From: Bacillota bacterium
Lineage (GTDB): Bacteria; Bacillota; Bacilli; Bu12
Assembly (NCBI GenBank): GCA_014896485.1
Contig: JADBKH010000021.1
Span: 1 to 37,316, forward strand
Length of the DNA: 37,316 bases
Direction: 5' to 3'
The notes under the pieces were generated by a model, which saw only the letters and a list, made by a program, of their open reading frames with translations, had not been told where the DNA came from and did not search any database. The translations under genes and the position numbers were made by a program. Of the stretch, positions 15,158-36,323 are shown piece after piece; position 1 is the first letter of the stretch, and each line of letters starts with the position of its first letter.

Positions 15158-15249
15158 AGGATGCTCCTTCCTGCAAGCGAAAAGATCGCTTACTTGCCTT
15201 CAACGGTCTTCCAATGATCTTCCTTCAAGGTAGGGGCCAGCTTGAGCGA

Positions 15250-16584: not shown

Positions 16585-16617
16585 CGTCATTCCCTCCCCG
16601 CCTGTCACCTATTCTGC

Positions 16618-17985: not shown

Positions 17986-18012
17986 ACCTGACCTCCTTTT
18001 GAATTCACCCGA

Positions 18013-18570: not shown

Positions 18571-19394
18571 CACGCCCCTCCTTTCTCAATAAGCCGGTTG
18601 GACGAACGCGAAGGATCCCATGAAAGGCAAGCAGACAGGCATTCTGCCAGGCGCTGCACCCCATGGTTGAACCACCGCCGCCCCATCTCAAGGGAGGCTT
18701 GGGACGGGTCGCCGAGTACGCCGCTTTCCGACCAATCCGTGCTCGCCCAAGCATACGTCACGGGTGCATGCTCCGGTCCGATCCAGGCATCCTCAGGCGG
18801 CAACATGGCTTGTGGAAGCTCTCCTACCCACTCGGGAAAAGCGGCCATCGCGATGCTCGTCTCCACCTGTCCGGCATGGAGCCCCAAGCGCGCCTCTTCT
18901 TCGGATAATTCGTTGGGATCGACTTCCCACAGGCTCCCGCACGCGATGCTAAAAACGACCAAGCCTGATGAGAGATGCAACCGCCGCGCCGTCTCCTTTA
19001 GAATGGCGGTGTTGCCACCGTGTCCGTTAAGCAGGAGCAGTTTATGAAACCCGCTTCGGGCCAGGCTTTCGCCGATACCCATCACTGTCTTTTGGAGCGT
19101 TTCTCCATCTATGGTCAACGTGCCGGGAAAAGCCGCATGCTCGATGCTGTTGGCGTAGGCGATCGGCGGCAACGCGTAGACAGGACGCTCCTTGGGCAAT
19201 TGGTGCAGCGCTGCTTCAAGCGTGTGCACCACTGTAAGCGTATCGGTCAGCAGGGGGAGATGTGGCCCGTGTTGTTCTACGGAGCCGATGGGCAACACGA
19301 AGAGGGAGTCACGGGAGAGAGCGGCCACTCGCTGCCAAGTCATCAAGGGCAGGTAACGATCTGAAGCTAAGCTCATCCACGTCGAAACGTCCAT
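18570..19394 (-). CDS. Creatininase-family amidohydrolase
   Basis: This 274-residue protein is of the creatininase superfamily, which includes creatinine amidohydrolase, the formamide hydrolase ArfB and the peptidase MftE. The metal-binding motifs are visible in order: LPIGSVEQHGPHLPLLTDT (about 34-52, with Glu, His and Asp), LLLNGHGGNT (about 120-129) and GLHAGQVETS (about 170-179, with the Glu ligand). A Trp-rich segment near 218-222 (YAWASTDW) may line the pocket. Members hydrolyse cyclic amides or formamides. In this operon it may open or trim a nitrogen-containing ring taken up by the importer. The ATG at 19394 has AGGGGG about ten bases upstream and follows the binding-protein gene by 13 bases. 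Confidence 0.88.
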   Translation of the reverse strand: MDVSTWMSLASDRYLPLMTWQRVAALSRDSLFVLPIGSVEQHGPHLPLLTDTLTVVHTLEAALHQLPKERPVYALPPIAYANSIEHAAFPGTLTIDGETLQKTVMGIGESLARSGFHKLLLLNGHGGNTAILKETARRLHLSSGLVVFSIACGSLWEVDPNELSEEEARLGLHAGQVETSIAMAAFPEWVGELPQAMLPPEDAWIGPEHAPVTYAWASTDWSESGVLGDPSQASLEMGRRWFNHGVQRLAECLSACLSWDPSRSSNRLIEKGGA

Positions 19395-19407
19395 CTATGG
19401 CGACCCC

Positions 19408-20463
19408 CTACTTTTGTGGAAGGAATTCGGTGGTGTAGGCCTGGTGAAAATCGAAGCTCGTTTTGAGCAGTCCCAAATCCTTCAACTGGTTGTACAACTC
19501 TTGCCACCGCGCTTCCGTCATCGTGCCCACGCCTCCAGACGACGCGTCGCCCCCCATGATCAACGGTTTTTCCGCCTGCCACCCGTATTTCATCGCATTC
19601 ATGTCCAGATCCTTATTCTGGGTCTTCATATAGGCATTCGTATCGTCGGGCTGCTCCAGATAGCTGTTCCACCCCTTTATCGAAGCTTCGACGAACGCTT
19701 TCACCTGCTGCGGATGCTCCGCAAGGTACTTCTTGGTCGTAAACAGCACGTTGGCGTAAGGATTGTATCCAGAGTCGGCGATCAGCTTGTATCCAACCTT
19801 CACGTTTTGTTGCTTTGCGTAGTACGGTTCCGAGGTAACGTATCCTTGGGTCACCGCGGCAGGATCTGACAAGAAATTGGCCAGTGTGCCGTTATACGCT
19901 TGCTCTTTGACGTTCAAGCCATACTTTTTCTGCAAATACGTCCAGTAGACAACGCCGGGTGCGACGGCAACCGGACGGCCATTGAGGTCGGTCCACTGTT
20001 GGACGGGATGATCGCTGTGAAACATCAGAATTTGCGGATTGGTTTGAAAGACGGCAAAGAGGGCCACAATGGGAATTCCGTTGTCTATCGCTTGCAACAC
20101 TTGATCGGCTTCAGCCATTCCAAATTCGGCCCGTCCCCCGGCGACAATTTGAGTAACGCTCACCTGGGGACCGCCTTGCTGGACGGTCATATCCAGGCCG
20201 GCTTCTTTGTAATATCCCTTGATCAGCGCCTCATACTGCCCACCCTCTTCCGGTTCTGCAAACCAGTTCATCACCTGGGTCACTTTGGTGGGCGAAAGGC
20301 TCGTATTTTGTTGCTGGGGAGAGGCGCCCGTACTCGTCGTTTGCTCCGAAATCGTGTTCGATCCAGGATTTTGGGAGGCTCCCCCACAAGCGGTCAAGAT
20401 CCCCACCAATAAGGCGGTACACACTCCCAACCCCCATCCTCTTTTGAAACTGTGCTTTTTCAT
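19408..20463 (-). CDS. NMT1/THI5-type ABC transporter substrate-binding lipoprotein
   Basis: This 351-residue lipoprotein has a signal peptide with a lipobox LTAC (Cys26), a Ser/Thr/Gln-rich linker to about residue 58, and an NMT1/THI5-like periplasmic-binding domain (TQVMNWFAEPEEGGQYEALIKGYYKEAGLD onward in the usual order). This family binds pyrimidine thiamin precursors (ThiY), sulfonates (SsuA), nitrate or other small ring compounds. The W-F-A-EPEEGG strand resembles ThiY/RibY-like proteins more than SsuA, but I would not name the ligand. The ATG at 20463 is chosen because AAAAGGGGG lies five bases upstream and it begins the signal peptide. It sits between the permease and the catabolic enzymes, so its ligand is probably their substrate. 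Confidence 0.92.
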   Translation of the reverse strand: MKKHSFKRGWGLGVCTALLVGILTACGGASQNPGSNTISEQTTSTGASPQQQNTSLSPTKVTQVMNWFAEPEEGGQYEALIKGYYKEAGLDMTVQQGGPQVSVTQIVAGGRAEFGMAEADQVLQAIDNGIPIVALFAVFQTNPQILMFHSDHPVQQWTDLNGRPVAVAPGVVYWTYLQKKYGLNVKEQAYNGTLANFLSDPAAVTQGYVTSEPYYAKQQNVKVGYKLIADSGYNPYANVLFTTKKYLAEHPQQVKAFVEASIKGWNSYLEQPDDTNAYMKTQNKDLDMNAMKYGWQAEKPLIMGGDASSGGVGTMTEARWQELYNQLKDLGLLKTSFDFHQAYTTEFLPQK

Positions 20464-20476
20464 CTGTTCCCCCTTT

Positions 20477-21343
20477 TCAGTTTTCAACCACAATGCTTGA
20501 TTCGTGCCATTTTCCAAGCAAGAGCCTTCCCAACTGGCCCACACCGAGGTAGACCAGGATGCCCATGATGCAGGCGGTCAGCGCTGCCGCGAACAGGTAA
20601 TCCATGTGCAACTGGGTTGCCGCTACGATGATGCTGTATCCCAGCCCACCTTGACTGCCGCCGATGCCGGCCACGTACTCACCTACGATGGCTCCGATCA
20701 GTGACGAACCCGCCGAAATGCGCAAACCTCCCACAATGTACGGAAGCGCCGTCGGAATACGCAGTTTCCATGTGAATTGCCAACGTGACGCATGGTAGAG
20801 GCGCAGCAGGTTGGCCAGATTGGTATCGACGGAGTTAAGGCCCAACACGGTATTGGAGATGACGGGGAAGACGGCGATGATGAACGAGACAGCCACAATG
20901 GCGGTAAATCCGGCTCCGAACCAGACGATCAGGATGGGTGCTACCGCCACGATTGGAATCGTTTGCAAGACGACAGCATAGGGAGAGAGGCTACGCTCGA
21001 TCCACTTGCTTTGACTCATGACAACCGCCACCAAGACACCAAAGAGGCCGCTCAAAAGAAAGCCCAGCATGGCGGAGATAAAGGTGTGGTAGGCGGATTG
21101 CAACAGACTCGGCAAGTTGTCGATGGCGGCCGTTACAATAGCCGATGGCGTTGGGAAGATATAGACGGGCAAGTGCAGTGCCGTGACAAAAATTTGCCAC
21201 AGCCCGACGACAAAGACGAAGATCCCAAGCGGAGGGCCAAACTGGCGCAATCGTTCGCTGAGCCGGGGTTTGCGTTCCGGTGGATTCACAGAAAGCTCCT
21301 GGGATACGTCTTCCTCTGCTACAAGAGGGGATTGGAGACTCAT
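20477..21343 (-). CDS. ABC transporter permease, SsuC/ThiX type
   Basis: This 288-residue BPD_transp_1 permease has a cytoplasmic N-terminus and about six membrane segments. The coupling (EAA-like) loop is ISAGSSLIGAIVGEYVAGIGGSQGGLGY, split here as SSLIGAIVGEY and GGSQGGLGY (about 205-235). LPVYIFPTPSAIV near the start is characteristic of the taurine/sulfonate/pyrimidine importer branch. The ATG at 21343 overlaps the ATPase stop by four bases (ATGA), so translation is coupled. The longer frame starting further upstream is rejected because it would lie deep in the ATPase gene. It forms one importer with the flanking ATPase and lipoprotein. Confidence 0.92.
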   Translation of the reverse strand: MSLQSPLVAEEDVSQELSVNPPERKPRLSERLRQFGPPLGIFVFVVGLWQIFVTALHLPVYIFPTPSAIVTAAIDNLPSLLQSAYHTFISAMLGFLLSGLFGVLVAVVMSQSKWIERSLSPYAVVLQTIPIVAVAPILIVWFGAGFTAIVAVSFIIAVFPVISNTVLGLNSVDTNLANLLRLYHASRWQFTWKLRIPTALPYIVGGLRISAGSSLIGAIVGEYVAGIGGSQGGLGYSIIVAATQLHMDYLFAAALTACIMGILVYLGVGQLGRLLLGKWHESSIVVEN

Positions 21344-22146
21344 TCTTCCATGCCTCGCTCTCCACGCAGACACTCCAAAACGCGACCGACGGCATCGCCA
21401 AAGGTTGGAGTGGAACGAAACGCGTCGTCACGGGGATAGGGTGCGTCAATCTCCACGAAGCTGGCGATGCGACTCGGTTGTGCCGTCATGACCACGATGC
21501 GTTGAGAAAGAAAGACAGCCTCAAAGACGTTGTGCGTGACAAAGAGGGCCGTCAGCGCGTTTTCCTGCCAAAGGCGCAGCAGCTCACCGTTGAGGTATTG
21601 GCGTGTCAATTCATCCAGAGCACCGAAGGGCTCGTCCAACAGGAGCAGTTTCGGCTGGGAGACCAACGCCCTTGCCAAAGAGACGCGCATACGCATACCT
21701 CCCGACAACTCCCGCGGATAGCTCTTCGCAGTATGTTCAAGGCCCACCAAGCGCAGCGCAGACAGGGCGCGCTGCTCGCGCTCTCGTTTGGATACGCCTG
21801 CCAATTCCAGAGGAAGGGCGACATTTGGAAGCACCGTACGCCATGGCATCAGTGTGGCATCCTGGAAGACAAACGAGAGTCGGTTGTCCACGTGCGAAAC
21901 CGTCGGTGATTCTCCGTAAACCCGAATGTTCCCACTGCTCGCTTCTCCTAGACCGGCGATCATCCGCAATAAGGTCGATTTCCCGCAGCCGGAAGGGCCG
22001 ACCAAACTGACAAATTCACCGCTCTTAATCGAAAAGCTGACATTGCGGATCGCTACTGTCCCAGATGCGTAACGTTTTTGGACCTTTTCCACGACGACCG
22101 CGGGCGTTTCGGTCTGTCTCCCTTGTTCGGCGATTCCCACGCTCAC
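21340..22146 (-). CDS. ABC transporter ATP-binding protein, SsuB/TauB/ThiZ type
   Basis: This 268-residue ATPase has Walker A GPSGCGKST, Q-loop FQDATLMPW, signature LSGGMRMRVSLARAL, Walker B LLLLDEPFGALDELTR and the switch histidine in FVTHNVFEA. The GTG at 22146 is chosen because GGGAG lies eight bases upstream. An upstream in-frame ATG at 22233 would add 29 residues including a repeated MFQY, but has no ribosome site and family members start near the GTG. It is the first gene of the importer-catabolic operon. A strong promoter and a tandem operator lie about 110-180 bases upstream of the start. Confidence 0.92.
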   Translation of the reverse strand: MSVGIAEQGRQTETPAVVVEKVQKRYASGTVAIRNVSFSIKSGEFVSLVGPSGCGKSTLLRMIAGLGEASSGNIRVYGESPTVSHVDNRLSFVFQDATLMPWRTVLPNVALPLELAGVSKREREQRALSALRLVGLEHTAKSYPRELSGGMRMRVSLARALVSQPKLLLLDEPFGALDELTRQYLNGELLRLWQENALTALFVTHNVFEAVFLSQRIVVMTAQPSRIASFVEIDAPYPRDDAFRSTPTFGDAVGRVLECLRGERGMEE

Positions 22147-22161
22147 CGCATTCGCTCCCTT

Positions 22162-22185
22162 AAACATGTACTGAAACATGTACTG
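22162..22185. repeat. 12-bp tandem repeat in the ABC operon leader
   Basis: AAACATGTACTG occurs twice in perfect tandem, just upstream of the preferred GTG start. If the upstream ATG were used it would encode MFQY twice; otherwise it lies in the untranslated leader. Confidence 0.7.
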
Positions 22186-22265
22186 CGAAATCTCATGGAT
22201 TGGAATCTTCCATGAAGAATTGAAATCTTTCATGTATCGATTGTGAGAGCTCGATCATGGGAGTT

Positions 22266-22438: not shown

Positions 22439-23380
22439 TTATCCGATGCTCTTTTTTAGCCATTCCAACAGTTGAGCAAAAAGCGAATGGATCGGAGCGG
22501 TTGCGCTGCCAAGCACGCGGATCAAGATTCCTGCTGGCAGCAAGGTAGCGCCTCCATAGAGCGGACCTCCATAGAGCGGAGAGAATGGACTTGTCCGATC
22601 AGCTGTTTCCTGCGAAATCGCCCTCCCTTCGAGCAGAGAAGCGTGCGTTTCGTGGAAAAAAGGGAGATCTTCGGCGGTTTGATCTGCAAATGCGTAAGGA
22701 CGTGGCAAAGGATTGGCCGCCGCGAGCAAACGCTCAGCTTCTTGTTTGAAAAGAGCGCATGCTTCGTCCGGGGGCTGCGTCAGAAACCAGAAACTTCCCA
22801 GATGGGTAGCGGATCCAAAAGCCGCTGCGTTATCCAAGGGCGCTTTTTTCGGACAAAACACTTGATTCTCCCATAGGATGGGCGTGTCAGATCCGCTTTC
22901 CCACACGTGCATACGTGTCTGATAGCGGCGATAGCGGAAGTATTCGTGTATCCCCGATCGTCCTGGGGTAAGGATCTCCCACAACACGGCGCGGGCTCCT
23001 TTTCCCAGATGCACGTCGATGCGTTGTTCGAAGTTCGATTCCGCAAAAGGGATCACTTCTTCGGGAAGATAACAGAAGAAGGCTCCATCGCCGAGACGCA
23101 CCTCCATCTTCTGCTTTGCCATCTGTTGTGGCATACGGTAAAGCTTCGTCGCCGCTTGGGTGGTCAGGCGCAAAGCAGCACGCTCGTGGAGATCGAGCCG
23201 CACGCGGTAGCGATCGCCCTGCAGAATGCCTCCAAGTTGAACCAGCGTCGCTCGCAGCCCAAAACTGTCATCGGTTGGAAAAAGCCATTGCAGCGGTGGT
23301 TGCGCGAAGCTATCCAACAGCTGTGTGCACCGCCGCCGCTGGTCATAGCCAACGGAGAGTGAGGCTTCTGCTTGGGCCAC
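22439..23380 (-). CDS. ureD: Urease accessory protein UreD (UreH)
   Basis: This 313-residue urease assembly factor binds apo-urease with UreF and UreG to deliver nickel. Family features are RVRLDLHERAALRLTTQAATKLYR (about 58-82, split as RVRLDLHERAAL and TTQAATKLYR) and the PEEVIPF stretch (about 106-112). The GTG start at 23380 overlaps the UreG stop (TAGTG). It is the last gene of the purine-urease operon. A 15-base tandem duplication (22551-22580) near the C-terminal coding end gives the doubled PLYGGPLYGG. No clear terminator follows; a 205-base gap with the next operon's control region does. Confidence 0.9.
   Translation of the reverse strand: MAQAEASLSVGYDQRRRCTQLLDSFAQPPLQWLFPTDDSFGLRATLVQLGGILQGDRYRVRLDLHERAALRLTTQAATKLYRMPQQMAKQKMEVRLGDGAFFCYLPEEVIPFAESNFEQRIDVHLGKGARAVLWEILTPGRSGIHEYFRYRRYQTRMHVWESGSDTPILWENQVFCPKKAPLDNAAAFGSATHLGSFWFLTQPPDEACALFKQEAERLLAAANPLPRPYAFADQTAEDLPFFHETHASLLEGRAISQETADRTSPFSPLYGGPLYGGATLLPAGILIRVLGSATAPIHSLFAQLLEWLKKSIG
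22551..22580. repeat. 15-bp perfect tandem duplication inside ureD
   Basis: CCTCCATAGAGCGGA is present twice head to tail and encodes PLYGG twice in UreD. It looks like a recent slippage event that keeps the frame. Confidence 0.8.
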
Positions 23381-24003
23381 TAATCCGTCTCACCAGCCAG
23401 TGAGTCCAGGGCCGTTTCGTGGATCAGCCAACTCTCAATTTGATCGACGCCTTGTTGCGTGCGAAGGTTGGTCAACAAGAACGGCCTTTCTCCGCGCATA
23501 CGCAGGGTATCACGCCGCATCACCTGCAGATCGGCGCCGACGTAAGGTGCCAGATCGATCTTGTTGATGAGCAATAAGTCGGAACGCAAAATGCCGGGGC
23601 CACCCTTGCGCGGGATCTTTTCTCCTTCGGCTACGTCGATGATGTAAATGACCAAGTCGGCCAACTCAGGACTAAAGGTGGCGGCCAGATTGTCTCCCCC
23701 ACTTTCGATGAAAACGAGATCCAATTGGGGGAAACGGTGTAACAAGGTATCGATCGCCTCCAAATTGATGGAGGCGTCTTCCCGGATAGCCGTATGGGGA
23801 CAGCCTCCTGTCTCCACACCGAGAATCCGCGACGCTTCCAGTGCGCCCGATTCCACCAAGATACGTTCGTCTTCGCGGGTATAGATGTCGTTGGTGACGA
23901 CGCCGATCTCAAAACGCCGGGAAAGGCGGCGGGCGAGATGCTCGATCAACGCGGTCTTTCCCGAACCGACCGGACCCGCCACACCCACGCGAACAGGTTT
24001 CAT
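23380..24003 (-). CDS. ureG: Urease accessory GTPase UreG
   Basis: This 207-residue SIMIBI GTPase supplies energy and nickel for urease maturation. The P-loop GPVGSGKT lies at 10-17. Also visible are the nickel-binding CPH motif ([11 protein letters not shown], about 67-77), [17 protein letters not shown] and the guanine-specificity NKID. The ATG at 24003 has GGGGG eight bases upstream. Length and motifs are standard. It follows ureF by 24 bases and overlaps ureD. Confidence 0.97.
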
Positions 24004-24027
24004 GAATGAATCCCCCTTTCAAACTAC

Positions 24028-24777
24028 TTACGAACGAAACAGGCGCGAGTAGAGCAACGCATGGCGCATTTGGGCAATCTCCATTGCGGGCAACGCCCCG
24101 CTCTCTAGATCGTCTTCCGTGTGTCCCTCCTGCTCTGCCAGTGCTGCTTCGATCGGCTCGCGTATTGCCGCCAATAGACGCTGCCCTTCGCTTTGCCCCA
24201 GCGGCACCAGTTTCACCAGCGCAACGACCAGTCCGGCTGCCGCGGCGAAGGCGGCAGCGAGGGTACTCTGCCCAGGCACCCAAGCGCAGTCCGCTCCCAG
24301 CAGCGCGTAGACGACGACGGCGTTACCCAATCGCTCGCGGCGCTCACGTTCTTCCTCTGAAACTTCTGTACTCCCTGCTCCTCCGCTGTCCAAGACGTAT
24401 CTCGCATAATCGGCGGTGTATCCCCCAGGCATCACGGTTGCGGCCTCGCGCAACAGATGCCGTCCGGTCGAAAGGGCGGCCAGGCGACTCTCTTGTGCCG
24501 TTTTCGAGGCAGTCAACCGCGCATCAAGCCGCACGATCCGAGCCAAGGCATCATGAGACGAGGTCAAAGCTTTTTCAGCCAATAAGCCGATCAAGCCGTC
24601 GGCAGGCGCCCACTGTCGTGTCATCACCTGTATGAGCCACACCTGTGCTTGTTTTCCATCGGTCAGCCGCCCTTCTTGCACCACGCTTTCCAAGCCAAAA
24701 GAGTGGGAAAAAGCGCCGGTCGGAAACATCGAATCGGAAAATTGCAGCAGCTGCCACAAAGCGGCGTGTTCGTTCAC
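24028..24777 (-). CDS. ureF: Urease accessory protein UreF
   Basis: This 249-residue all-helical protein acts as the GTPase regulator of UreG in the urease activation complex. It starts with LQFSDSMFPTGAFSHSFGLE, split as LQFSDSMFPTGAF and SHSFGLE, the hallmark of the family. The C-terminal part contains the usual PLGQSEGQRLL. The GTG start overlaps the ureE stop by four bases (GTGA). The length is about 20 residues above typical because of an acidic/basic insertion (SEEERERRERLG). Confidence 0.95.
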   Translation of the reverse strand: MNEHAALWQLLQFSDSMFPTGAFSHSFGLESVVQEGRLTDGKQAQVWLIQVMTRQWAPADGLIGLLAEKALTSSHDALARIVRLDARLTASKTAQESRLAALSTGRHLLREAATVMPGGYTADYARYVLDSGGAGSTEVSEEERERRERLGNAVVVYALLGADCAWVPGQSTLAAAFAAAAGLVVALVKLVPLGQSEGQRLLAAIREPIEAALAEQEGHTEDDLESGALPAMEIAQMRHALLYSRLFRS

Positions 24778-25226
24778 AGGACATGGGTATGCCCGGTGCG
24801 GCTGGTGGCAAAACCCTGTGGCAACAGGCGCCTCTCTTTGGCGTACGGTAAGTGGCTGCGTTGCAACAGTGCCTCATTCTGGGGCTCGTCTGGTAACACC
24901 ACCTCCTCCTCCCCCACCCAGACGGGTTGGTGCAGATTGCCTATCTGATAGCAGAGCGTCCCCATCTCACGAAGTGAAGCAGGTCGCGCCACCAATATGT
25001 CTGCTGGCAACATGCGCACGGCAATCGTGCGCTGTGTTTCGCGGATGAGTATGTCGCCGTCGGCCAAAGGTGGCCCCGGCGGCAGATCGATCACCACCTC
25101 TGTGCCGCGATCCGTCACTTTGCGCAAACGACGTCGCGCACACTCTTCCCAATGGACAGAAACATACTCGACGTTTGGTTCGTTGCCTTGCAATCGTCCC
25201 AGCACGTCACGCGCGGTCACTGCCAA
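24774..25226 (-). CDS. ureE: Urease accessory nickel-binding protein UreE
   Basis: This 150-residue nickel metallochaperone has an N-terminal peptide-binding domain (about 1-75) and a C-terminal ferredoxin-like metal-binding domain with YQIGNLHQPV, the conserved His-containing strand. The C-terminus is only weakly His-bearing (GHTHVL), unlike the His-rich tails of enterobacterial UreE. The start is TTG at 25226, with AAGGAGGT nine bases upstream; a GTG two codons later is possible. It is coupled to ureF by overlap. Confidence 0.93.
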   Translation of the reverse strand: MAVTARDVLGRLQGNEPNVEYVSVHWEECARRRLRKVTDRGTEVVIDLPPGPPLADGDILIRETQRTIAVRMLPADILVARPASLREMGTLCYQIGNLHQPVWVGEEEVVLPDEPQNEALLQRSHLPYAKERRLLPQGFATSRTGHTHVL

Positions 25227-25244
25227 CCTCTTTCGACCTCCTTA

Positions 25245-26960
25245 TCAAAACAAGAAATAACGTTGCGCCATAGCGAGGCGTTCTGCCGGGGCGCTGCTGC
25301 AGCGTTGGCCATCGACGAATACTTCGTACGTCTGCGGATCGACTTCGATATGCGGCGTTTTTTCGTTGAGACGCATCTGTGCTTTGCTCAGGTTGCGGCA
25401 TCCGCGAACAGCATAAAGTGGCTTTCGCAAGTGTAAGGCGCTCCCTATGTCGCGGTTTAGAGCGGTTTGAGAGACGAACGTCCACGAAAGAGCATGGCTC
25501 GCCTCCCCAAACGCCCCGAACATCGGCCGATAGAGAACCGGTTCCGGAGTTGGGATCGAGGCATTGGAATCGCCGATAGCAGCGTAAACAATCATGCCCC
25601 CCTTCAGGACAAGAGCCGGTTTGACACCGAAGAAGGCGGGGGACCAAAGTACCAGATCGGCCCACTTGCCCACTTCGATCGAACCGACCAGCGCATCGAT
25701 GCCATGCGCAATGGCAGGGTTGATGGTGTACTTGGCGATATACCGCCGAATGCGCACGTTGTCGTTCTCTCCCTGCTCTTCATCCAAGCGGCCGCGTTGC
25801 CGTTTCATCTTGTCCGCAGTTTGCCAGGTGCGTAGAATCACTTCCCCCACGCGGCCCATGGCTTGGGAATCAGAAGAGATCATGGAGAGCACGCCCAAAT
25901 CGTGGAGCACGTCTTCGGCTGCGATCGTCTCGCCGCGAATGCGCGAGTCCGCGAAGGCCACGTCTTCAGGCAAGTTCGGATCGAGATGATGGCAGACCAT
26001 CAGCATATCCAGATGTTCGGCCAGCGTATTGACGGTGTAGGGCCGGGTTGGATTCGTCGAAGAGGGCAGGACGTTCGGCTCGCCGGCAATGCGCAAGATA
26101 TCCGGCGCGTGTCCACCGCCAGCCCCTTCCGTGTGATAGGTGTGAATCGTCCGCCCGCCGATCGCCGCGATGGTACGCTCGACAAAGCCCGTCTCGTTGA
26201 GCGTATCGGTGTGAATCGTCACTTGGACGTCGTAGGCGTCGGCTACCCGCAGGCAAGTGTCGATGGCGGCCGGAGTACTGCCCCAATCTTCATGTAATTT
26301 CAGGCCGATCGCTCCCGCTTCGATCTGCTCCACCAGCGGCTGCTCAAATGAGGCATTCCCCTTTCCCGTAAAGCCCACATTGACCGGAAACGCTTCGGCG
26401 GCTTGAAGCATCCGGGAGAGATTCCAGGGGCCGGGCGTCGCGGTGGTCGCGTTTGTTCCTGTGGTAGGTCCCGTGCCCCCGCCGATCATCGTGGTGATTC
26501 CGCTTGCAACCGCGTGTCGTGTCAACTGCGGAGAGATGAAATGCACATGGGTGTCGATACCCCCTGCTGTCAGGATCATGCCTTCGGCCGAGATCACTTC
26601 GGTCGACGGCCCAATGATCAATGTCGGGGTAACCCCATCCATCGTCTCCGGATTGCCAGATTTGCCAATGCCACAGATTCGCCCGTCTACAACGCCTATA
26701 TCCGCTTTGAAGATTCCCTGCCAGTCGACGATCACCACGTTGGTGATGACCAAATCGGGGGCACCCAGCGCCCTTCCTACGCGACCCGATTGTCCCATTC
26801 CATCTCGGACAACCTTACCTCCCCCAAACTTCGCTTCTTCGCCGTAGACGGTGCGATCCTCCTCCACTTCGGCCCATAATTCGGTATCCGCCAAGCGAAT
26901 GCGATCGCCCGTGGTAGGCCCGAACATGGCGGCATAGGCGCGACGCTGCATGGTCGACAT
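25245..26960 (-). CDS. ureC: Urease alpha (catalytic) subunit
   Basis: This 571-residue nickel enzyme hydrolyses urea to ammonia and carbamate. The active site is complete: His138 and His140 (DTHVHF), carbamylated Lys221 (GLKLHEDWG), His250 (TIHTDT), His276 ([15 protein letters not shown]), flap Cys323 (MVCHHLD) and Asp364 (SSDSQAMGR). Size is normal for the three-gene bacterial type. ATG 26960 has GGAGG six bases upstream. It follows ureB by 34 bases and precedes ureE, the common ABCEFGD order. Confidence 0.98.
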
Positions 26961-26994
26961 GTCGCCCCTCCTTCAAAATTCACTCTGGCAAAGT

Positions 26995-27381
26995 TCACTC
27001 TGGTTTTACTGGCATACTGCCTAAAAAGCCTTGCTCTGCCGCGCGCGCCAACGCCTTTTGGCGGACAGCCGGATCGTCAAGCCACCCTTGCGTCAGTCCG
27101 TTTAAGCCGAAGATGCGTCGAAAGCCACCAATGGGGATGAGATCCACCCTTTTGGCTTCGCCTGGCTCAAAACGGACAGCCGTTCCCGCCGGAATGTCCA
27201 AACGGCGGCCAAAAGCAGCGGCACGATCAAAATACAGCGCTGGATTGATTTCAAAAAAGTGCATGTGTGAGCCGACTTGTACCGGCCGATCTCCGGTGTT
27301 GACCACCTGGATCGCAATCGATGAGCGTCCGACATTGAGTTCGACAGGCGCTGACATGGCCTCTATCTCACCCGGAATCAC
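26995..27381 (-). CDS. ureB: Urease beta subunit
   Basis: This 128-residue structural subunit starts MIPGEI and carries the conserved stretches [15 protein letters not shown] and [15 protein letters not shown] (about 36-75), then a C-terminal tail of about 20 residues beyond the core. The GTG start at 27381 overlaps ureA by 14 bases, with GAGGGGG seven bases upstream. Confidence 0.97.
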
Positions 27382-27700
27382 GCGGCAACCCCCTCTGCCC
27401 TCGGATCGGTTGATGCACCGTCACCAATTTGGTCCCATCCGGAAACGTAGCTTCTACTTGGACCGTCTCGACCATCTCCGCCACACCTTCCATCACTTCG
27501 TCCCGATGCAGAAGGGTGGCCCCGTACGACATCAGATCGGCAACGCTTCGTCCGTCACGCGCTCCCTCCAACAGCGCCGATGCGATGTAAGCAACCGCTT
27601 CCGGGTAGTTGAGTTTGAGACCGCGTTGCTTGCGGCGCGCAGCCAGTTCCCCGGCTACAGTGATCAAAAGCTTTTCTTGTTCCCGGGGTGAAAGCATCAT
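27368..27700 (-). CDS. ureA: Urease gamma subunit
   Basis: This 110-residue structural subunit starts [13 protein letters not shown] and contains [12 protein letters not shown] and the strand [20 protein letters not shown], all standard. The ATG at 27700 overlaps the allantoinase stop by four bases (ATGA), with AGAGGGGG eleven bases upstream. This direct coupling joins the urease genes to the purine pathway. Confidence 0.97.
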
Positions 27701-29073
27701 GGTCCGTCGATCCCCCTCTCTGCGTCCGACACTTCACCCATTGCACCCCGCGCCCCGTCGTGAGCATACAGCAATCGGCCGCCGGCCACCGTGGCCAAAA
27801 CGGTACCGCGAAACGTACGTCCCAAAAACGGACTTTGCTTGTGGCGATAAAGCAGATCGTTTTCACGCAATGTAAATGGAAGCTCAAGATTGACGACGAC
27901 CAGATCGGCGTCACTTCCGGGAAGAAGGCTGCCCTTTCGCGGAAAAAGTCCAAATCGTCTTGCCGGGTTGGCCGACGTAAGCCGCACGATCGTCGAAAGC
28001 GGTATTCCGCGCCGCCAATAGCCTTCCTCGAGGAGAACGGCAAGCGTCGTCTGCGCACCCGAAATTCCTCCCCATGCCTCAAAGAGATCGTCACGTGCTT
28101 TTAGCTCAGGCGGAGCGGGCGAGTGGTCAGAGGCGACAGTATCGATCTCTCCTTGGCGAATCGCCTCCCACAAGGCTTGTACCTCCTCTTGGGGGCGTAA
28201 AGGCGGCGCACATTTGGCGATGCTGCCCAACTCCTCAAAATCCTTTTGACATAAGGCCAGATAGTGCGGACAGGTTTCGATGGAAATGTCGGCTCCCCTT
28301 TGCTTTGCCCATTGCGCTGCTGCCACGGCGCTGCCGCTGGAAAGATGCAACAGGTGCAGTCGGCATCCGGTCGCAAGAGCGTACGCAGACGCTTTGGCTA
28401 CTGCCGCCACCTCGGCGGCGACCGGACGCGCCGCGCAATAGGCAGCGACATCGGTTGCGCCGGAATCCCGAATCCTCCTGCTCAACACTTCAACCATAGG
28501 ACCGTCCTCGGCATGGAGTGCCAAAAGCCCGTCCAACGCTGCGATGCGGCACATCCCCTCCAGCAATGTGAAATCGTCGACCGGCGGATATTCGGGCAAT
28601 CCGCTTTCGCAGAGAAAAGCTTTAAAGCCGACAACCCCGGCGTCGTACATCAGGTACAAATCGTCGAGGTGGTCCGGTACCAATCCTCCCCACTGCAGGA
28701 CGGTCTGCTCCAGCTGATACCCGGCCAGGCGGGCACGTTTGCGCTGCAACGCCGCCAACGAGACGGTCGGTTCGCTGTTGAGCGGCATATCGAAAAAGGT
28801 GGTCACTCCACCGGCTGCCAGACTTCGGGCTGCCGTTTCAAAGCCTTCCCAATGCTCGCGGCCTGGTTCGTTGCAATGCACGTGTGTATCGATGATGCCG
28901 GGCAGCAGATGAAATCCTTTTGCGTGCCAGAGCCTTTGCGGCCGAACCTTCTCTCCTAACGCCGGCCCTACAGCCGCAATGCGCCCTTCGTCGACCGCAA
29001 CATCAGCCGCAAAGACCCCTTCTTCCGTGACCAGTTGTCCCCCTTCAATCAACAGATCGACGTGATCCAGCAA
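27697..29073 (-). CDS. pucH: Allantoinase (AllB/PucH)
   Basis: This 458-residue cyclic amidohydrolase opens allantoin to allantoate. It has [17 protein letters not shown] (metal His pair, about 62-78), the lysine-bearing [27 protein letters not shown] and [13 protein letters not shown], the order seen in PucH/AllB. TTG at 29073 is preferred because AAGGAGGG lies five bases upstream; the frame extends to an ATG at 29112 without a ribosome site. Other dihydropyrimidinase-type roles are unlikely given the urate oxidase and hydroxyisourate hydrolase genes just upstream. It is coupled to ureA. Confidence 0.93.
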
Positions 29074-29142
29074 AGCTTCCCTCCTTACATCACTTAGGAA
29101 AGATCTCACCATAGGGCAGGGGCAACCGTGACGCTTTAAGAG

Positions 29143-29426: not shown

Positions 29427-29774
29427 CTACGACCCGCGGTAGGTGGTATAGCCCCACGGAGTGACCAACAGCGGAATGTGAATGTCCCCTTCATCCCCAT
29501 TTAGGTGAAACGCGATCGGAACTTGACGCCACAAACCCTGGAACTCACCTCGTTGCGCAAAGTAGCCGCCGACATCAAAACGCAGTTCGAAATCACCAGA
29601 GATGTTCGCGGTTTCGTTGCAAAGCGGTTGCGCCAAACGCCCCAGCTCGTCGGTTGTTGCAGAGGCAAGCAGACGACTCTCTCCTTCCGACAGCGTACGA
29701 TAGAGCCGCACCTCCATCCCTTGCGCAGGCAATCCCCGCATCCAGTCCAAAACGTGTACGGTCAGCGCGGCCAC
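29427..29774 (-). CDS. pucM: 5-hydroxyisourate hydrolase (transthyretin-like, PucM)
   Basis: This 115-residue enzyme hydrolyses 5-hydroxyisourate, the product of urate oxidase, to OHCU. The N-terminal VHVLDWMRGLPAQGM carries the catalytic His and matches the family. The C-terminal tetrapeptide YRGS is diagnostic for the hydrolase against transthyretin. GTG start at 29774, three bases after the urate oxidase stop. Confidence 0.96.
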   Translation of the reverse strand: MAALTVHVLDWMRGLPAQGMEVRLYRTLSEGESRLLASATTDELGRLAQPLCNETANISGDFELRFDVGGYFAQRGEFQGLWRQVPIAFHLNGDEGDIHIPLLVTPWGYTTYRGS

Positions 29775-29777
29775 GGC

Positions 29778-30716
29778 TTACCGCCTCAGCGTCAAGGTGA
29801 TCAGGCCATTGGCCACAAAGGGCGCAGTATACACCTTGATCCTGGGATCGTCGGGATCCTCTGCGATTAAATCGTGGGTGTGATTTTCGGCTGCAAAGGA
29901 GAGGGATGAGATTTGGGGGAAGCGTTCGAACATGCGATTGCCCATCACATAGACCAACTCTTGGATGGAATGACTGACAAAGCCGTGAAAGGTCGTAGAC
30001 ACAAAATCCCGGACTTGCTGCGCAGGAAGATAACGGGAGAGATCATTGGAAGTACCATCTTGAGGCCGTTCATACGTCCACGTCAGATCCATTCGGACGA
30101 AGAGCGGACGATCCTCTGTCTGAGGTAAGGTGGTGTACTCGTCCTGGCGATATCCGGCGAAGCTGCTTCCCGTGATCTTGAGCAATTCGATCCCTGCGAT
30201 GCCGCTTTCCAATGAGGCCATTTGAAAGCCTTCGCCCAAAGGATCGCGACCCATACGCAATGTGCAAAAAGCATAGTCGCCGCTCCGCCTTCGAAAAAGG
30301 ATGGGATCGTCCTCTTGGATGGCATTTGGCGGCAGGTCAACCGCTTCAAACAGCAGTTCACGAGCGGTTAACTGCAAGGCTTCCATGGTTTGGTATTGGG
30401 TGAGAAACTGCTTCCCTAAAAAGGCGAGAAAGGCTTCAGGTGTGGCACCGTCAAAGAGGACGGCTTGGCGCAAGATAAAGTTTTTCATGGTATCGGTCGC
30501 CACCACGTTGCGATTGTCCCCTTCGGTGTACGCAGGAAGAAAGGTTTGTCCAAAGACCTCCACGTCGATTTCAAGAGCCAAAAGATGGTTGGCATCACCG
30601 GTAAACGTCGACTCGGGAATCGCAGCGAAACCGCTCAACGGCCGGGCATAGGTGCGGTGCACCGGAACGCGCAATTTTCCATAACTGATCTGTATCCGCT
30701 CATCATCAACAGACAT
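29778..30716 (-). CDS. pucL: Urate oxidase (uricase), stand-alone
   Basis: This 312-residue cofactor-free uricase oxidises urate to 5-hydroxyisourate. It has the paired catalytic residues Lys14 (SYGKLRV) and Thr74 (VATDTMKN), and NHTHDL near the C-terminus. In B. subtilis PucL the uricase is preceded by an OHCU decarboxylase domain; here that domain is missing from this protein and is attached instead to the xanthine dehydrogenase subunit encoded immediately upstream. GGGAGG lies six bases before the ATG at 30716, one base after the upstream stop. Confidence 0.95.
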   Translation of the reverse strand: MSVDDERIQISYGKLRVPVHRTYARPLSGFAAIPESTFTGDANHLLALEIDVEVFGQTFLPAYTEGDNRNVVATDTMKNFILRQAVLFDGATPEAFLAFLGKQFLTQYQTMEALQLTARELLFEAVDLPPNAIQEDDPILFRRRSGDYAFCTLRMGRDPLGEGFQMASLESGIAGIELLKITGSSFAGYRQDEYTTLPQTEDRPLFVRMDLTWTYERPQDGTSNDLSRYLPAQQVRDFVSTTFHGFVSHSIQELVYVMGNRMFERFPQISSLSFAAENHTHDLIAEDPDDPRIKVYTAPFVANGLITLTLRR

Positions 30717-30717
30717 G

Positions 30718-33579
30718 CTACGCCTCCCTTTCCATCACGCTTTGAAGACCGCCGACCCGATCGAGGATACGGGTGCGGGCGATTTGGCTCACCTCTTCGA
30801 TGGCACAGGCAAGCTCTATCGCCGGAGCATTTCGCAGACGCGCTCGCGCTACTGAAACCCGATCTTCTTCTGCGTGGGCACGCAATGCGAAGACATAGGG
30901 AAAGCCGAACTTGATCCGATAGAGATGGTTGAAACGGCGCCACCAGGAGAGAGCCCCGTCGTCCAAGGTGGAAAAACCGCCCTGTGCCTGCTCGCTGCGG
31001 GAGAGCGCGGAGAGTCCGACCGCGGCATTCCGCGCGGTGGCAAGTTCCGGATGAGTCATGAGGATCGCTCGTTGGCGTTTTGGAGAGGCCGAAATGAGCA
31101 CTTCACGAAACGCGTCTGCCAACGCCTGAGGATCCGGGAAAGGCCGCCGCTGAAAGACCGCTCGCGCCACCCACGGCGACTCTTCGACGGCAAAACCCAG
31201 CGTGGCAACAAAGTGTTCTTCGGTCATCGCGTTGATCTGTTCCATGGGAAGCGACTCCGCCTCTTGCTCTTGCGTAGGTGTCAGAAAAACCGCTACGTTC
31301 GGCTGTGGGAGCAGCAGATCTTCAGGCCGGATCGGAAAGCGCGTCAACGCGCGTCCGCTTGCTGCACGGACAGCTGCCGTGATGGCAGGTCCAGAGGAGA
31401 GCGTGGGCATCTCGCCGACTCCCTTGAGGCCATAAGGAGCGGAAGGGTCAGATTCTTCCAATAATTCGGTATAGATGGGGGGAACGTCCTCGGAAGTTGG
31501 AACCAGGTAGGATTCGAAAGAAGCGTTTTGCACAACACCCTCTTTGCTTTCCAGCGCTTCCATCAGCGCCAAGCCGAGCCCTTGAGCGCTGCCTCCCTCC
31601 ATCTGTCCACTCACCATCTTCGGATTGACGGCGCGACCGACCTCTTGGATGGTGGCCAACTCGACCGGGCGGATCGAGCCGCTGCCCAAGTCGACGTCGA
31701 CGACGGCACGGTGGGCGACGAAGGCAAAATCGAGATGCGCATTGCCTTGACCGGTTTGGGGATCGAGAGGCTGCGTAGGACGATGATGATGGGTTCGTTC
31801 CACCTCGACAGGAGTTTCACGGAGGAGGCTTTTTAATGAAACGTGCGGCTCCTCTTGCGCAGGAAGTTCCGTTTCGCGTGTACGCCACAACATCCCTTCG
31901 CGGATCACCAAGCGACCCGCTCCCTCTTGAGCCCCAAGTTCTTTTTCTGCGCGTTCCCACAGTACTTCGCGCAACGCAGCGCAGGCTTCTTTCAGAGCGG
32001 CGGCAGTCATCCACGTCTGTCTTGAAGCAGAAGTCGAGCCAGCAGAAGCCACATCCGTCGCGATCGGTTCGAGTACGATGCGAAGGTTGCCGAATTCCTC
32101 AGTCAGAATCTGGCGCTGCACGGTGCGGATCCCTTGGCCAACTTCGGCGGCGGCGGACCACAGATGCACTTCGGGCGACCCATCTTCTCCCGTCTGCATC
32201 CTCAGGCGCACCGTAGCTGTATCGTCCATGCCGGAGGAGTATCCGATATTTTTGAATGCGACCGCAAAGCCCACCCCTCGGTGCACTCCTGGAAAACCCG
32301 CTGAAGCAGATTGGGGCAACGGCACCTCTTGCAAGCGCTCCAAAAGCCGATCCACCGGTACAGGACCTTCGAGGCGTTGTCCGGTCGGAAGCACATCCCC
32401 AGTGCGCAGCGCGTTTTTCCGGCGAAGCTCCACGGGATCCATTCCCAATGCTTGTGCCAATCGATCCATTTGTGCTTCGTATGCAAAGGCCACTTGTACA
32501 GCACCAAAGCCACGCATCGCCCCCGCGATGGGATGGTTGGTAAAGACCACTTCCGCTTCGATGGAGCCGTTGGGCACGCGGTAAGGACCGCATGCAAAGG
32601 TAGCGGCGTTTACGACCACCGCATTGGAAGAAGAGGCGTAGGCACCCCCGTCGAGCAAAATATGAGCACGTACATAGCGCAAGGTGCCGTCGAGATCGGC
32701 ACCATGCTCGTACCACATCTGCGCCGGATGGCGGTGGGCATGGGCAAGGAAGGATTCTTCCCGCGTGTAGCTCATCTTGACCGGCCTGCCCGTCGCCTGT
32801 GCCAATAGGGCGAGATGGATCTGCAGGGTGATGTCTTCCCGACCACCAAACGCGCCACCGACCCCGGCCAGATGCAAGTGTACGCGCTCTTCGGGCAATG
32901 CCAATGCGGCTGCAATCTGGGCGCGATCGGCGTGCAGCCACTGCGAAGCTGCCCACACTTCGATCCCGCCTTCCCCGTCCGGCTGTGCCAACCCTGCTTC
33001 TGGGGCGAGAAAGGCGGGATCCTGCATGGCCACGCTGTAAGATTGACGTACCACTACGGGCGCTTGCATCTGCGGATTCCCCCAAACGATGGGGAGACGA
33101 CGTAGAGTGTTTCCCTGAGGATGCAGGTTGGCTCCCTCTCCTGAGGCGACTCGTTTCGGATCGGTGAGCGGCTCCAAGCGAACGTAACGTACCGTAATCG
33201 CTTGGAGCGCCGCTTGTGCCGCCTCAGCACTCTCCGCGGCCACAATCGCCACCGGTTCGCCTTGGTAACGCACCTGATCCCAAGCGAGCACGGGTTGATC
33301 CGGTTCTTCAAAGCCGTAGGTCGGTCGGCCAGGAATATCTGCGTGGGTGAGCACAGCTTGGACCCCCGGCAGACGTCTGGTCACCTGCGTGTCGATCGCC
33401 TCGATTCGAGCATGTGGGTAAGGAGAGCGCAACGTCGCCCCGTAGAGCATGCCTGCTCTCGTCAGATCGTTGGCGTATACAAACCGGCCGCGCACTTTAT
33501 CCATCGCCTCGATGTTGCTGACCGACGCGCCGATCCCACCTGGGGTCGCGCTGGTATGCCGTCTATTCTCCGTTATCAT
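30718..33579 (-). CDS. pucD: Xanthine dehydrogenase molybdenum subunit fused to OHCU decarboxylase
   Basis: This 953-residue protein appears to be a two-enzyme fusion. Residues 1 to about 756 are the molybdopterin subunit of xanthine dehydrogenase: GVGGAFGGRED (239-249), MRGFGAVQVAFAYE, EVGQGIRTVQ and the catalytic glutamate in GLKGVGEMP (Glu723), ending at RPEDLL. After a 22-residue linker, residues 779-953 form a complete OHCU decarboxylase: HPELA (His843), SRSEQ (Glu863) and FGFPYVFAL (from 891). No stop or frameshift separates them, though Met779 has GGAG nine bases upstream, so internal initiation may also occur. ATG at 33579 overlaps the deaminase stop (ATGA), with GGAGG nine bases upstream. 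The frame further upstream to 34149 is a shadow of the deaminase gene. Confidence 0.93.
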   Translation of the reverse strand: MITENRRHTSATPGGIGASVSNIEAMDKVRGRFVYANDLTRAGMLYGATLRSPYPHARIEAIDTQVTRRLPGVQAVLTHADIPGRPTYGFEEPDQPVLAWDQVRYQGEPVAIVAAESAEAAQAALQAITVRYVRLEPLTDPKRVASGEGANLHPQGNTLRRLPIVWGNPQMQAPVVVRQSYSVAMQDPAFLAPEAGLAQPDGEGGIEVWAASQWLHADRAQIAAALALPEERVHLHLAGVGGAFGGREDITLQIHLALLAQATGRPVKMSYTREESFLAHAHRHPAQMWYEHGADLDGTLRYVRAHILLDGGAYASSSNAVVVNAATFACGPYRVPNGSIEAEVVFTNHPIAGAMRGFGAVQVAFAYEAQMDRLAQALGMDPVELRRKNALRTGDVLPTGQRLEGPVPVDRLLERLQEVPLPQSASAGFPGVHRGVGFAVAFKNIGYSSGMDDTATVRLRMQTGEDGSPEVHLWSAAAEVGQGIRTVQRQILTEEFGNLRIVLEPIATDVASAGSTSASRQTWMTAAALKEACAALREVLWERAEKELGAQEGAGRLVIREGMLWRTRETELPAQEEPHVSLKSLLRETPVEVERTHHHRPTQPLDPQTGQGNAHLDFAFVAHRAVVDVDLGSGSIRPVELATIQEVGRAVNPKMVSGQMEGGSAQGLGLALMEALESKEGVVQNASFESYLVPTSEDVPPIYTELLEESDPSAPYGLKGVGEMPTLSSGPAITAAVRAASGRALTRFPIRPEDLLLPQPNVAVFLTPTQEQEAESLPMEQINAMTEEHFVATLGFAVEESPWVARAVFQRRPFPDPQALADAFREVLISASPKRQRAILMTHPELATARNAAVGLSALSRSEQAQGGFSTLDDGALSWWRRFNHLYRIKFGFPYVFALRAHAEEDRVSVARARLRNAPAIELACAIEEVSQIARTRILDRVGGLQSVMEREA

Positions 33580-34955
33580 CGCATCATCCCTCCTGCTTGA
33601 AGCAATCGGCGCGAGTGGGTGTCCAGTTCGCAAGCGAGCACTTCCATATCGAGATCGACGAGCCGTCCGCTCTGAACCACCGGACGGCCATCGACCCACA
33701 CGGCTTCCGCCGCTCGAGGAGTCCCCAGTACCCAGGCAGCGAGAGGATCGTGAATTCCAGAATCTGTAAGAGAATCGATGCGCCATGCCGCCATATCGGC
33801 CAGCATTCCGGGCTCCAACTTTCCCATTTCCGCTTCCCAACCCAGACAACGGGCGCCGCCCAAGGTCGCCATGGTCAAGACTTCCTGTGTGGAAAGCGCT
33901 GTGGGACCTTCTTTTGCACGGGCAAACAGGAGCGCTTGATGCAGTTCTGCTTGCATCTGTGCCCCTTCGTTGGAGGCGGCGCCGTCGACGCCCAATCCCA
34001 CGTTGACACCACCACGCATCATCTGTGCAACCGGTGCGATGCCGGCACCGAGACGTCCGTTTGAGGTGGGACAGTGCGCAACCGAAGTACCCGCCTCTGC
34101 GAAAGCGGCGATCTCCTCCTCGTCGAGATGGACGGCATGCGCTACCCACAGATCTGGGCCGTCAAAACCGAGAGATCGCACATACGCATACGGACGCACC
34201 CCGAAGCGCTCCCGCGTATACTCCTCTTCGTCCATCGTCTCCGCCAAGTGCGTATGCAGTCGTACCCCCAGCGATCGCGCCAAACGAGCCGACTCCCGAT
34301 ACAACTGCGAAGAAGCAGAGAAGGGCGAACAAGGCCCCAACGCCACCCGAACATGAGCATCCGGTTTTGGATCGTGCAGCTGTTTTACGGCTTGTGCCAT
34401 ACGCATCAGAGCTTCGTCGATGGTTTCAACCACTTCATCGGGCGGCAGGCCGCCCTGCGAACGACCGAGATCCATCGCACCGCGGGCCAAGTAAAGTCGC
34501 AAACCCACCCTCTGTGCTGCGGCAACTTCCGCCTGAATCCACTCGAAGGGATCGACGTCTTTTGGGAAAAGATAGGCGTGGTCTGCCACCGTCGTGCACC
34601 CAGAAAGTGCGAGGAGCGCTAATCCCGCCTGCGAGGAAATCTCGACCATTTCAGGCGTCAGATGCGCCCACAGCGGGTAAAGTGTCGTCAACCACTCAAA
34701 CAGGGTGGCGTCCGGGGCAAGTCCCCGGGTGATCGTCTGATAGAGATGGTGATGGGTACAGATCAGGCCAGGCGTAATCAAACAGCCGGAAAGGTCAAGT
34801 CGGCGCCATTCCGACGTGTAGACGGTATCCGGCGGCGTGCCTTCTCCCACGTCGTAAATGCGGTTATCTACGACAGCTACGTAGCCGGGGGAACGTAAAG
34901 GAACGCCGGGAGAGGCCACCACCGCGCCGCATAACAAGAATCGCCGCCCACCCAT
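33576..34955 (-). CDS. 8-oxoguanine deaminase-like amidohydrolase
   Basis: This 459-residue COG0402 aminohydrolase resembles 8-oxoguanine deaminase and the AtzB group. Metal and catalytic residues are His68 and His70 (CTHHHLYQT), His236 and Glu239 (THLAETMDEE), the AHAVHLD histidine (about 273-276) and Asp323 (GVDGAASNEG). The phrase LYPLWAHLTPEMV followed by LSGCTTVADHAYLFP is characteristic of the 8-oxoguanine deaminase branch. Placed between the Fe-S and molybdenum subunits of xanthine dehydrogenase, it probably feeds the pathway by turning 8-oxoguanine into urate, or guanine into xanthine. ATG 34955 has AAGGAG nine bases upstream, five bases after the Fe-S subunit stop. Confidence 0.88.
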   Translation of the reverse strand: MGGRRFLLCGAVVASPGVPLRSPGYVAVVDNRIYDVGEGTPPDTVYTSEWRRLDLSGCLITPGLICTHHHLYQTITRGLAPDATLFEWLTTLYPLWAHLTPEMVEISSQAGLALLALSGCTTVADHAYLFPKDVDPFEWIQAEVAAAQRVGLRLYLARGAMDLGRSQGGLPPDEVVETIDEALMRMAQAVKQLHDPKPDAHVRVALGPCSPFSASSQLYRESARLARSLGVRLHTHLAETMDEEEYTRERFGVRPYAYVRSLGFDGPDLWVAHAVHLDEEEIAAFAEAGTSVAHCPTSNGRLGAGIAPVAQMMRGGVNVGLGVDGAASNEGAQMQAELHQALLFARAKEGPTALSTQEVLTMATLGGARCLGWEAEMGKLEPGMLADMAAWRIDSLTDSGIHDPLAAWVLGTPRAAEAVWVDGRPVVQSGRLVDLDMEVLACELDTHSRRLLQAGGMMR

Positions 34956-34959
34956 CCCG

Positions 34960-35430
34960 TCACACTCCTTTAAGGCCGATTGCGGCTTGGTAGACCGCGT
35001 CGACGATCTTCTGATAACCTGTACACCTACAGAGATTTCCGGTTAAAGCGGATCGAATCTGCTCTTTTGTGGGGTTGGAGAGGGCACTTAACAATGCGTG
35101 GGCCGCCATCTCCATTCCAGCGGTACAAAAGCCACATTGCACGGCTCCAGCTTCGACAAAAGCTTGCTGAACGTTGTCTATCCCTTCAGAGGTTTCCAGC
35201 CCCTCTACCGTCGTCACCTGATGTCCTTGCAATTGTGCAGCCGGTACCAAGCATGCGTTGACCAATCTCTCGTCGATCAAAACGGAACAGGCACCGCAAT
35301 GTCCCGTTGCGCAACCGATCTTGGTACCCGTCAGCCCCAACCGATCACGAAGGATAACCGCCAGACTTTCCAATGGGGCCACACCAGCTAAGTTGTGGGA
35401 CTGCCCATTGACTTCAAAGGTGATCTCCAT
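34960..35430 (-). CDS. pucE: Xanthine dehydrogenase 2Fe-2S subunit
   Basis: This 156-residue small subunit has both iron-sulfur clusters: the plant-ferredoxin type with Cys40, Cys45, Cys48 and Cys60 (GCATGHCGACSVLID), and the second domain with Cys99, Cys102, Cys134 and Cys136 (QCGFCTAG, NLCRCTGY). ATG 35430 is chosen (GGAGG nine bases upstream); the longer frame would run into the FAD subunit gene. It overlaps that gene by 17 bases. It passes electrons from the molybdenum centre to the FAD subunit. Confidence 0.95.
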   Translation of the reverse strand: MEITFEVNGQSHNLAGVAPLESLAVILRDRLGLTGTKIGCATGHCGACSVLIDERLVNACLVPAAQLQGHQVTTVEGLETSEGIDNVQQAFVEAGAVQCGFCTAGMEMAAHALLSALSNPTKEQIRSALTGNLCRCTGYQKIVDAVYQAAIGLKGV

Positions 35431-36268
35431 CACTCCACACCTCCTGCAACGTTCGCACGGCAACTGCAGCGGCTGAGGTGCGAACGACTTCTGGGATCTC
35501 AGCAGAGTGAGCGGCCAGCGTTTCTTCCACAATCCCATAAAATTCCATACCAATCTCTTCCGGAGGTTCGGTTCCCATCATTGAAAGTGCTTCCGTTGCA
35601 AACTGCTCCGCATGGAGAAGACGGAAAGCCCCTGTTCCCACAGTCATCGCGATGCGCACGTACGGGCTCGGCAGCGTCGCGTCAATTGCAATGGCAGCCG
35701 CTACCTCAGGAAAGCAGAAGGCCGCGCGTCTACCCAAGCGGTGATAGGCCTGCGGGCCTTGGTCACGCGGAAATCGCAACGCCGTGATGATCTCGTCTGG
35801 CTGCAGAGAGGTTTGCGATGGCTCACACACCCAGGCTTCGATGGGTAGCACGCGGCTGCCGACTGTAGAGGTCAATACCACTTCAGCGCCGACGGCCAAC
35901 AACGCAGGCGGCAGATCAGCGTTGGGTAACGAGAGCGCAACTGCACCACCCAACGTTCCCTTGTTGCGCACTTGAGGCGTACCGACCGATCGACACGCCT
36001 GCGCCACGGCGGGTACCGTCGAGGCAAGAAAATCGGCCGCCCTGGCATAGGAGAAAGCGGCGCCTACTTGGATCACACACTCTTCTGTGTGGCAGCCATA
36101 CAGTTGCTCCACGCGGGAGAGATCGATGAAACGTGTGTATTGGGAGAGTGCCGTGCGTGGCTGCGTCATCAGATGAGTGGCACCGCAGAGCAAATAGGCA
36201 TCGGGATAGGTCATTCGAAGTTCCAACGCTTCTTCCAATGAGATCGGCCGAAACCAATCCGTACCCAT
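35414..36268 (-). CDS. pucC: Xanthine dehydrogenase FAD-binding subunit
   Basis: This 284-residue FAD-binding subunit has YLLCGATHLM (about 25-34) and RNKGTLGGAVALSLPNADL (about 101-119), the two flavin-binding regions of the CoxM/XdhB type, and a C-terminal CO-dehydrogenase-flavoprotein-like domain (YHRLGRRAAFCFPEVAAAI). ATG 36268 is preferred because GAGGAGG lies eight bases upstream; the ATG at 36295 lies before that ribosome site and has none of its own. It is the first gene of the long purine-urease operon. Confidence 0.93.
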   Translation of the reverse strand: MGTDWFRPISLEEALELRMTYPDAYLLCGATHLMTQPRTALSQYTRFIDLSRVEQLYGCHTEECVIQVGAAFSYARAADFLASTVPAVAQACRSVGTPQVRNKGTLGGAVALSLPNADLPPALLAVGAEVVLTSTVGSRVLPIEAWVCEPSQTSLQPDEIITALRFPRDQGPQAYHRLGRRAAFCFPEVAAAIAIDATLPSPYVRIAMTVGTGAFRLLHAEQFATEALSMMGTEPPEEIGMEFYGIVEETLAAHSAEIPEVVRTSAAAVAVRTLQEVWSDGDHL

Positions 36269-36323
36269 CTGCGGCGCCTCCTCAGATAACATCACATGAA
36301 ACGTCGTAATACAATGATTTGGT

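Follow-up and report, generated by a model that had tools for sequence, protein, structure and literature searches.

Does one uninterrupted frame encode both the molybdenum subunit of a xanthine dehydrogenase (XDH) and an OHCU decarboxylase (UraD), and if it does, how did two enzymes that are not neighbours in urate breakdown come to share a polypeptide? XDH produces urate, uricase converts it to 5-hydroxyisourate (HIU), HIU hydrolase (HIUase) yields OHCU, and UraD forms (S)-allantoin, the uricase and HIUase steps separating XDH from UraD. The frame lies on the minus strand, at positions 30718-33579, of the window, by which we mean the whole stretch of 37,316 nucleotides analysed here.

Translation from 33579 to 30718 gave 953 residues and a stop, with no interruption. 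According to Pfam, NCBIfam, the molybdenum-site motifs and the structural model, the molybdenum-binding part of a PucD-type XDH occupies residues 1-756 (31312-33579). A linker (LPQPNVAVFLTPTQEQEAESLP; residues 757-778, 31246-31311), the middle of which is of low confidence in the model, leads to the UraD domain (residues 779-953, 30721-31245), identified by NCBIfam, alignment and model, with 2o70 as the nearest solved structure. The motif RPEDLL takes up residues 751-756 and Met779 opens UraD, leaving exactly 22 linker residues between them. Both other reading frames are interrupted by stops across the XDH/UraD junction, and the start of the gene is preceded by a good Shine-Dalgarno (SD) site (AGGAGG, -11.2 kcal/mol). 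A frame in which both domains score above the NCBIfam equivalog cut-offs, with a good SD site at its head, is beyond chance; the fusion is real at the sequence level, in one draft genome. A sequence-only reading made beforehand had described an XDH up to RPEDLL, a 22-residue linker and a UraD with HPEL and SxxEQ motifs in one frame, with a separate uricase starting one base downstream. Translation, Pfam and NCBIfam agree with the first part, and the second was confirmed, as a single base lies between the fusion stop and the uricase start at 30716 (TAG C ATG).

In the XDH part, Pfam recognised Ald_Xan_dh_C at residues 31-135, MoCoBD_1 at 172-390 and MoCoBD_2 at 428-700 of the fusion, and the NCBIfam model TIGR03196 (pucD) matched with 810.8 bits, above its equivalog cut-off of 783.65, which assigns this part to the PucD type. 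B. subtilis PucD belongs to the same family, the match spanning fusion residues 19-758; unlike the fusion, none of the ∼85 XDH relatives read carries a UraD tail. When aligned with relatives, the Gln, Glu, Arg and Glu motifs of the molybdenum site of xanthine dehydrogenases, as known for the R. capsulatus enzyme, carry Gln213, Glu248, Arg356 and Glu723. The Gln, the Arg and the second Glu are kept in 29 of the 29 aligned XDH relatives, while at the GGxE position (Glu248 in the fusion) 22 have Glu and seven have Asp. AlphaFold confidence, taken for this part from a first full-length model, was mostly above 80, and Foldseek matches of the model included 4-hydroxybenzoyl-CoA reductase, xanthine oxidoreductases and R. 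capsulatus XDH (1jro_B). In the XDH tree, this part falls inside a clade of Actinomycetota, Chloroflexota and Armatimonadota (SH-aLRT 100), outside the PucD-like relatives of its own class, on a rather long branch (0.61). Those class relatives mostly show the gene order FAD-XDH-FeS, whereas the order here is FAD-FeS-guaD-XDH.

The UraD part was recognised by Pfam (OHCU_decarbox, PF09349, residues 783-938; 117.9 bits against a cut-off of 24) and by NCBIfam (TIGR03164, UHCUDC; 114.3 bits against 96.25), which supports its assignment as an OHCU decarboxylase. Its motifs HPEL and SRSEQ start at residues 843 and 860, and every residue invariant over 37 aligned UraD sequences, including the His-Pro of HPEL, is kept. 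Zebrafish OHCU decarboxylase aligned with the domain nearly end to end, and the predicted all-helical fold matched the zebrafish structure 2o70 with a Foldseek TM score of 0.91 normalised by target (E = 3e-10). In a second AlphaFold model, from which the confidence values for UraD and the linker were taken, the UraD core lay mostly at 87-98, with one loop near 66-82, while the linker was partly below a pLDDT of 50, which in these predictions is consistent with a flexible tether. The domain scores lowest in the class sample (122 bits, the others reaching at least 144) and has the longest branch of the UraD tree (1.1), so its activity could be reduced. It is the sole UraD in the genome.

The fusion lies in a purine-breakdown operon of minus-strand genes in the order FAD subunit, FeS subunit, guaD, fusion, uricase, HIUase, AllB, and urease with its accessory genes. 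The XDH FAD subunit (35414-36295; Pfam and NCBIfam), the exact start of which is uncertain, and the [2Fe-2S] iron-sulphur subunit (34960-35430; Pfam and NCBIfam), which probably starts at codon 42 (ATG) of its listed ORF, preceded by a strong SD site, are present in the same operon as the fusion. An amidohydrolase resembling 8-oxoguanine/guanine deaminase (guaD, 33576-34955; NCBIfam) overlaps the fusion start by four bases. Downstream lie the genes for a separate uricase of 312 amino acids (factor-independent urate hydroxylase, 29778-30716; Pfam and NCBIfam), a HIUase of the transthyretin family (29427-29774), the allantoinase AllB (27697-29112; NCBIfam), and urease (ureABC) with the accessory genes ureEFGD (22439-27700), of which ureC, ureE, ureF and ureG were named from sequence and position. 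The guaD overlap and the one-base gap to the uricase gene suggest translational coupling. The annotated genes of the window span the conversion of guanine and xanthine to allantoate, plus urease; the steps from allantoate to urea were not identified among them. Elsewhere in the window, the minus strand carries a cluster (13895-22233) with an NMT1/THI5-like ABC transporter, a creatininase-family protein, a flavin reductase, an FAD-binding oxidoreductase and two amidohydrolases, which likely serves another nitrogen heterocycle, and a 1257-aa protein (2730-6503) with RCC1 repeats, cadherin-like domains and three CWB2 cell-wall-binding repeats. On the plus strand, one frame (9080-10798) holds a subtilase domain followed by a partial PLD-like match (residues 449-507).

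The distribution of UraD genes and fusions was surveyed by searching for PF09349 and recording the length of the open frame holding the UraD. This covered 399 genomes from the class of the window (49 with UraD), 398 of its phylum, 396 of Actinomycetota (71 with UraD), 400 of Chloroflexota (90 with UraD), 110 of a class to which several of the nearest XDH relatives belong (50 with UraD), and 33 with the closest XDH (26 with UraD); the genome of the fusion, in which no 16S gene was found, had no other member of its family or order in the sampled collection. No second XDH-UraD fusion was found among more than 210 UraD-bearing genomes of its own class and phylum, the Actinomycetota and the Chloroflexota. 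UraD frames of at least 900 amino acids, from six Actinomycetota genomes and one of Chloroflexota, were without XDH. Among the long UraD frames scanned, some were allantoicase-UraD or permease-UraD fusions and some had no recognised partner; the latter may reflect frame run-on where the genome is G+C-rich. In the 80 closest XDH loci of the genome contigs the match was confined to the XDH part, and the best 25 of 1109 plasmid records likewise showed XDH coverage only. The fusion's own genome has several other XDH-family proteins, none of them joined to UraD; among these are four further molybdenum subunits, on four other contigs, in frames of ∼780-815 aa. The sequence-only reading knew of no described fusion of this kind and proposed a search for the same two-domain order in related genomes; the survey brought no second case, and no description was found in the literature searched. 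As far as these collections show, XDH is an undescribed partner for UraD, and the protein is a new architecture built from two well-known families, one of which, UraD, is known to fuse readily.

UraD has several independent fusion partners, namely uricase, allantoicase and NCS2 permease. PucL of B. subtilis and its relatives resembles the present protein in that both join UraD to an enzyme from its own pathway, but there it is N-terminal to uricase, whereas here it is C-terminal to XDH and the uricase is separate. In the allantoicase-UraD fusions (compare NCBIfam NF010371), UraD sits, as here, at the C-terminus of a larger purine-breakdown enzyme, the partner being allantoicase rather than XDH; two were seen in Actinomycetota (L175:2491-5349 and L184:985-2994). 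The NCS2 (xanthine/uracil) permease-UraD fusions of Actinomycetota also join a C-terminal UraD to a protein that it does not adjoin in the pathway, although this partner, unlike XDH, is a membrane transporter. Two such frames were read (L185:2065-4161 and L192:469-2484), and UraD frames of ∼640-670 aa in several more genomes may be of the same kind. The eukaryotic allantoin synthase (UraD-HIUase; 5z5m, Arabidopsis TTL) is likewise bifunctional and holds a UraD (PMC2834698), but it joins consecutive steps, whereas HIUase here is a separate protein (29427-29774).

The junction is the meeting point of two natural gene ends, since the ends of ∼85 XDH relatives lie 0-43 residues beyond position 757, and the starts of several UraD relatives correspond to Met779. 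The order FAD-FeS-guaD-XDH recurs in three Chloroflexota loci (L014, L016 and L071), in which HIUase lies between XDH and UraD. A UraD-uricase-HIUase module, often with AllB, recurs in the window's own class and in Chloroflexota; the UraD and uricase of the window scored best against such clusters of other Chloroflexota genomes and of its own class. In two further loci (L201 and L213) a deaminase stands directly upstream of UraD. By gene order and similarity, the FAD-FeS-guaD-XDH and UraD-uricase-HIUase-AllB modules seem to differ in ancestry, the fusion taking one half from each. As the junction falls at the boundary between the two, their meeting point is probably where the fusion originated. 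The UraD tree has low resolution: neither grouping with its own class (P = 0.74) nor grouping with the UraD of L014 type (P = 0.10) was rejected. A single donor phylum for UraD was considered, and the tree names none.

The sequence-only reading, noting that in B. subtilis the decarboxylase is fused to uricase (PucL), had held that it 'swapped partners' here. In the class sample, however, which has 48 other UraD genes, 28 have frames shorter than a PucL-like protein would need, the remaining 20 being PucL-sized; seven of the latter were read, and all seven were UraD-uricase fusions. The presence of these PucL-bearing members suggests that the class is Bacilli-like. The commonest arrangement is a UraD with its own gene, directly upstream of uricase. 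Because most UraD genes of the class sample have short frames and are apparently free-standing, and several independent partners are known, a swap from a PucL ancestor was rejected as unnecessary. The simplest history would be that a free UraD gene joined its upstream neighbour: the FAD-FeS-guaD-XDH cassette would have arrived directly upstream of the UraD-uricase-HIUase-AllB cassette, and the short spacer between them would have opened in frame.

From these data we infer translation as one chain, both activities and the route just outlined; the product is probably a bifunctional chain of ∼100 kDa, with two independent activities on a flexible tether, that originated at the border of two modules. 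The XDH part would form a complex with the FAD and FeS subunits, whose genes lie upstream, and oxidise hypoxanthine and xanthine to urate, and the C-terminal UraD, on its flexible linker, would decarboxylate OHCU to (S)-allantoin after the action of uricase and HIUase, each activity working independently of the other. The half-lives of the metastable HIU and OHCU are 7.2 and 9.6 minutes (PMC4562309); as these compounds last only for minutes, UraD would speed and steer the last step. Direct channelling between XDH and UraD is unlikely because their steps are non-consecutive and share no intermediate. The simplest role of the fusion would be to provide the two activities at a constant 1:1 ratio, as parts of a single chain.

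Two other readings question whether a single chain is made. A free UraD might also, or mainly, be produced, either because translation starts at Met779 within the frame or because the linker is cleaved, leaving the enzymes separate, as in relatives. Met779 is indeed where free UraD proteins start, an SD-like GGAG lies nine bases upstream of it, and the linker, being of low predicted confidence, is possibly exposed; yet the anti-SD pairing (-7.8 kcal/mol) is weaker than that of most real starts in the operon (mostly -8 to -14), and Met779 is tied for about tenth place among 92 internal ATGs, several gene-less ones scoring equal or better. We therefore regard this reading as rather unlikely. It is quite improbable that a sequencing or assembly error masks a stop or frameshift between what are really two separate neighbours. 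Such an error would agree with the occurrence of the fusion in one genome only, with the assembly being an incomplete draft of 65 contigs, and with the junction stops in the neighbouring frames, one of them close to the XDH end of relatives. Nevertheless, the junction has no long homopolymer, the linker is free of stops and keeps UraD in frame, and its third-position GC (0.59) is near that of the two domains (0.62 and 0.64), a comparison in which 22 codons say little.

The remaining readings accept the fusion and differ over what UraD does. It could sit on the dimeric XDH complex and hold uricase and HIUase nearby, so that HIU and OHCU are cleared fast, which fits the metastability of both compounds (PMC4562309) and the tight clustering of the pathway genes. 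The sequence-only reading had likewise suggested that the fusion could draw the pathway enzymes together around XDH. XDH and UraD are not consecutive, however, relatives manage without such a fusion, and UraD is joined elsewhere to unrelated partners, a permease included, so that its partner looks interchangeable; as an account of the fusion this is extremely improbable. The idea that the fusion serves as a scaffold, tying the later enzymes of urate breakdown to the XDH complex, so that a non-consecutive pair would organise a purine-degrading metabolon, is very improbable. Finally, UraD might be decaying and without enzymatic purpose, spontaneous decay of OHCU being enough. The low HMM score and long branch fit such decay, but the invariant residues and the predicted fold are all kept, and the branch of the XDH part is rather long as well, which may mean no more than a divergent lineage; we find decay scarcely credible.

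If the preferred reading, a tethered bifunctional protein translated as one chain, is correct, XDH would be a further UraD partner, and one protein would link two steps of urate breakdown that do not directly follow each other. This would suggest that UraD fusions track gene neighbourhood as much as chemistry, and would advise caution against equating fusion with channelling. A natural bifunctional protein of 100 kDa would also offer a test of whether tethering aids the clearance of the unstable intermediates of urate oxidation.
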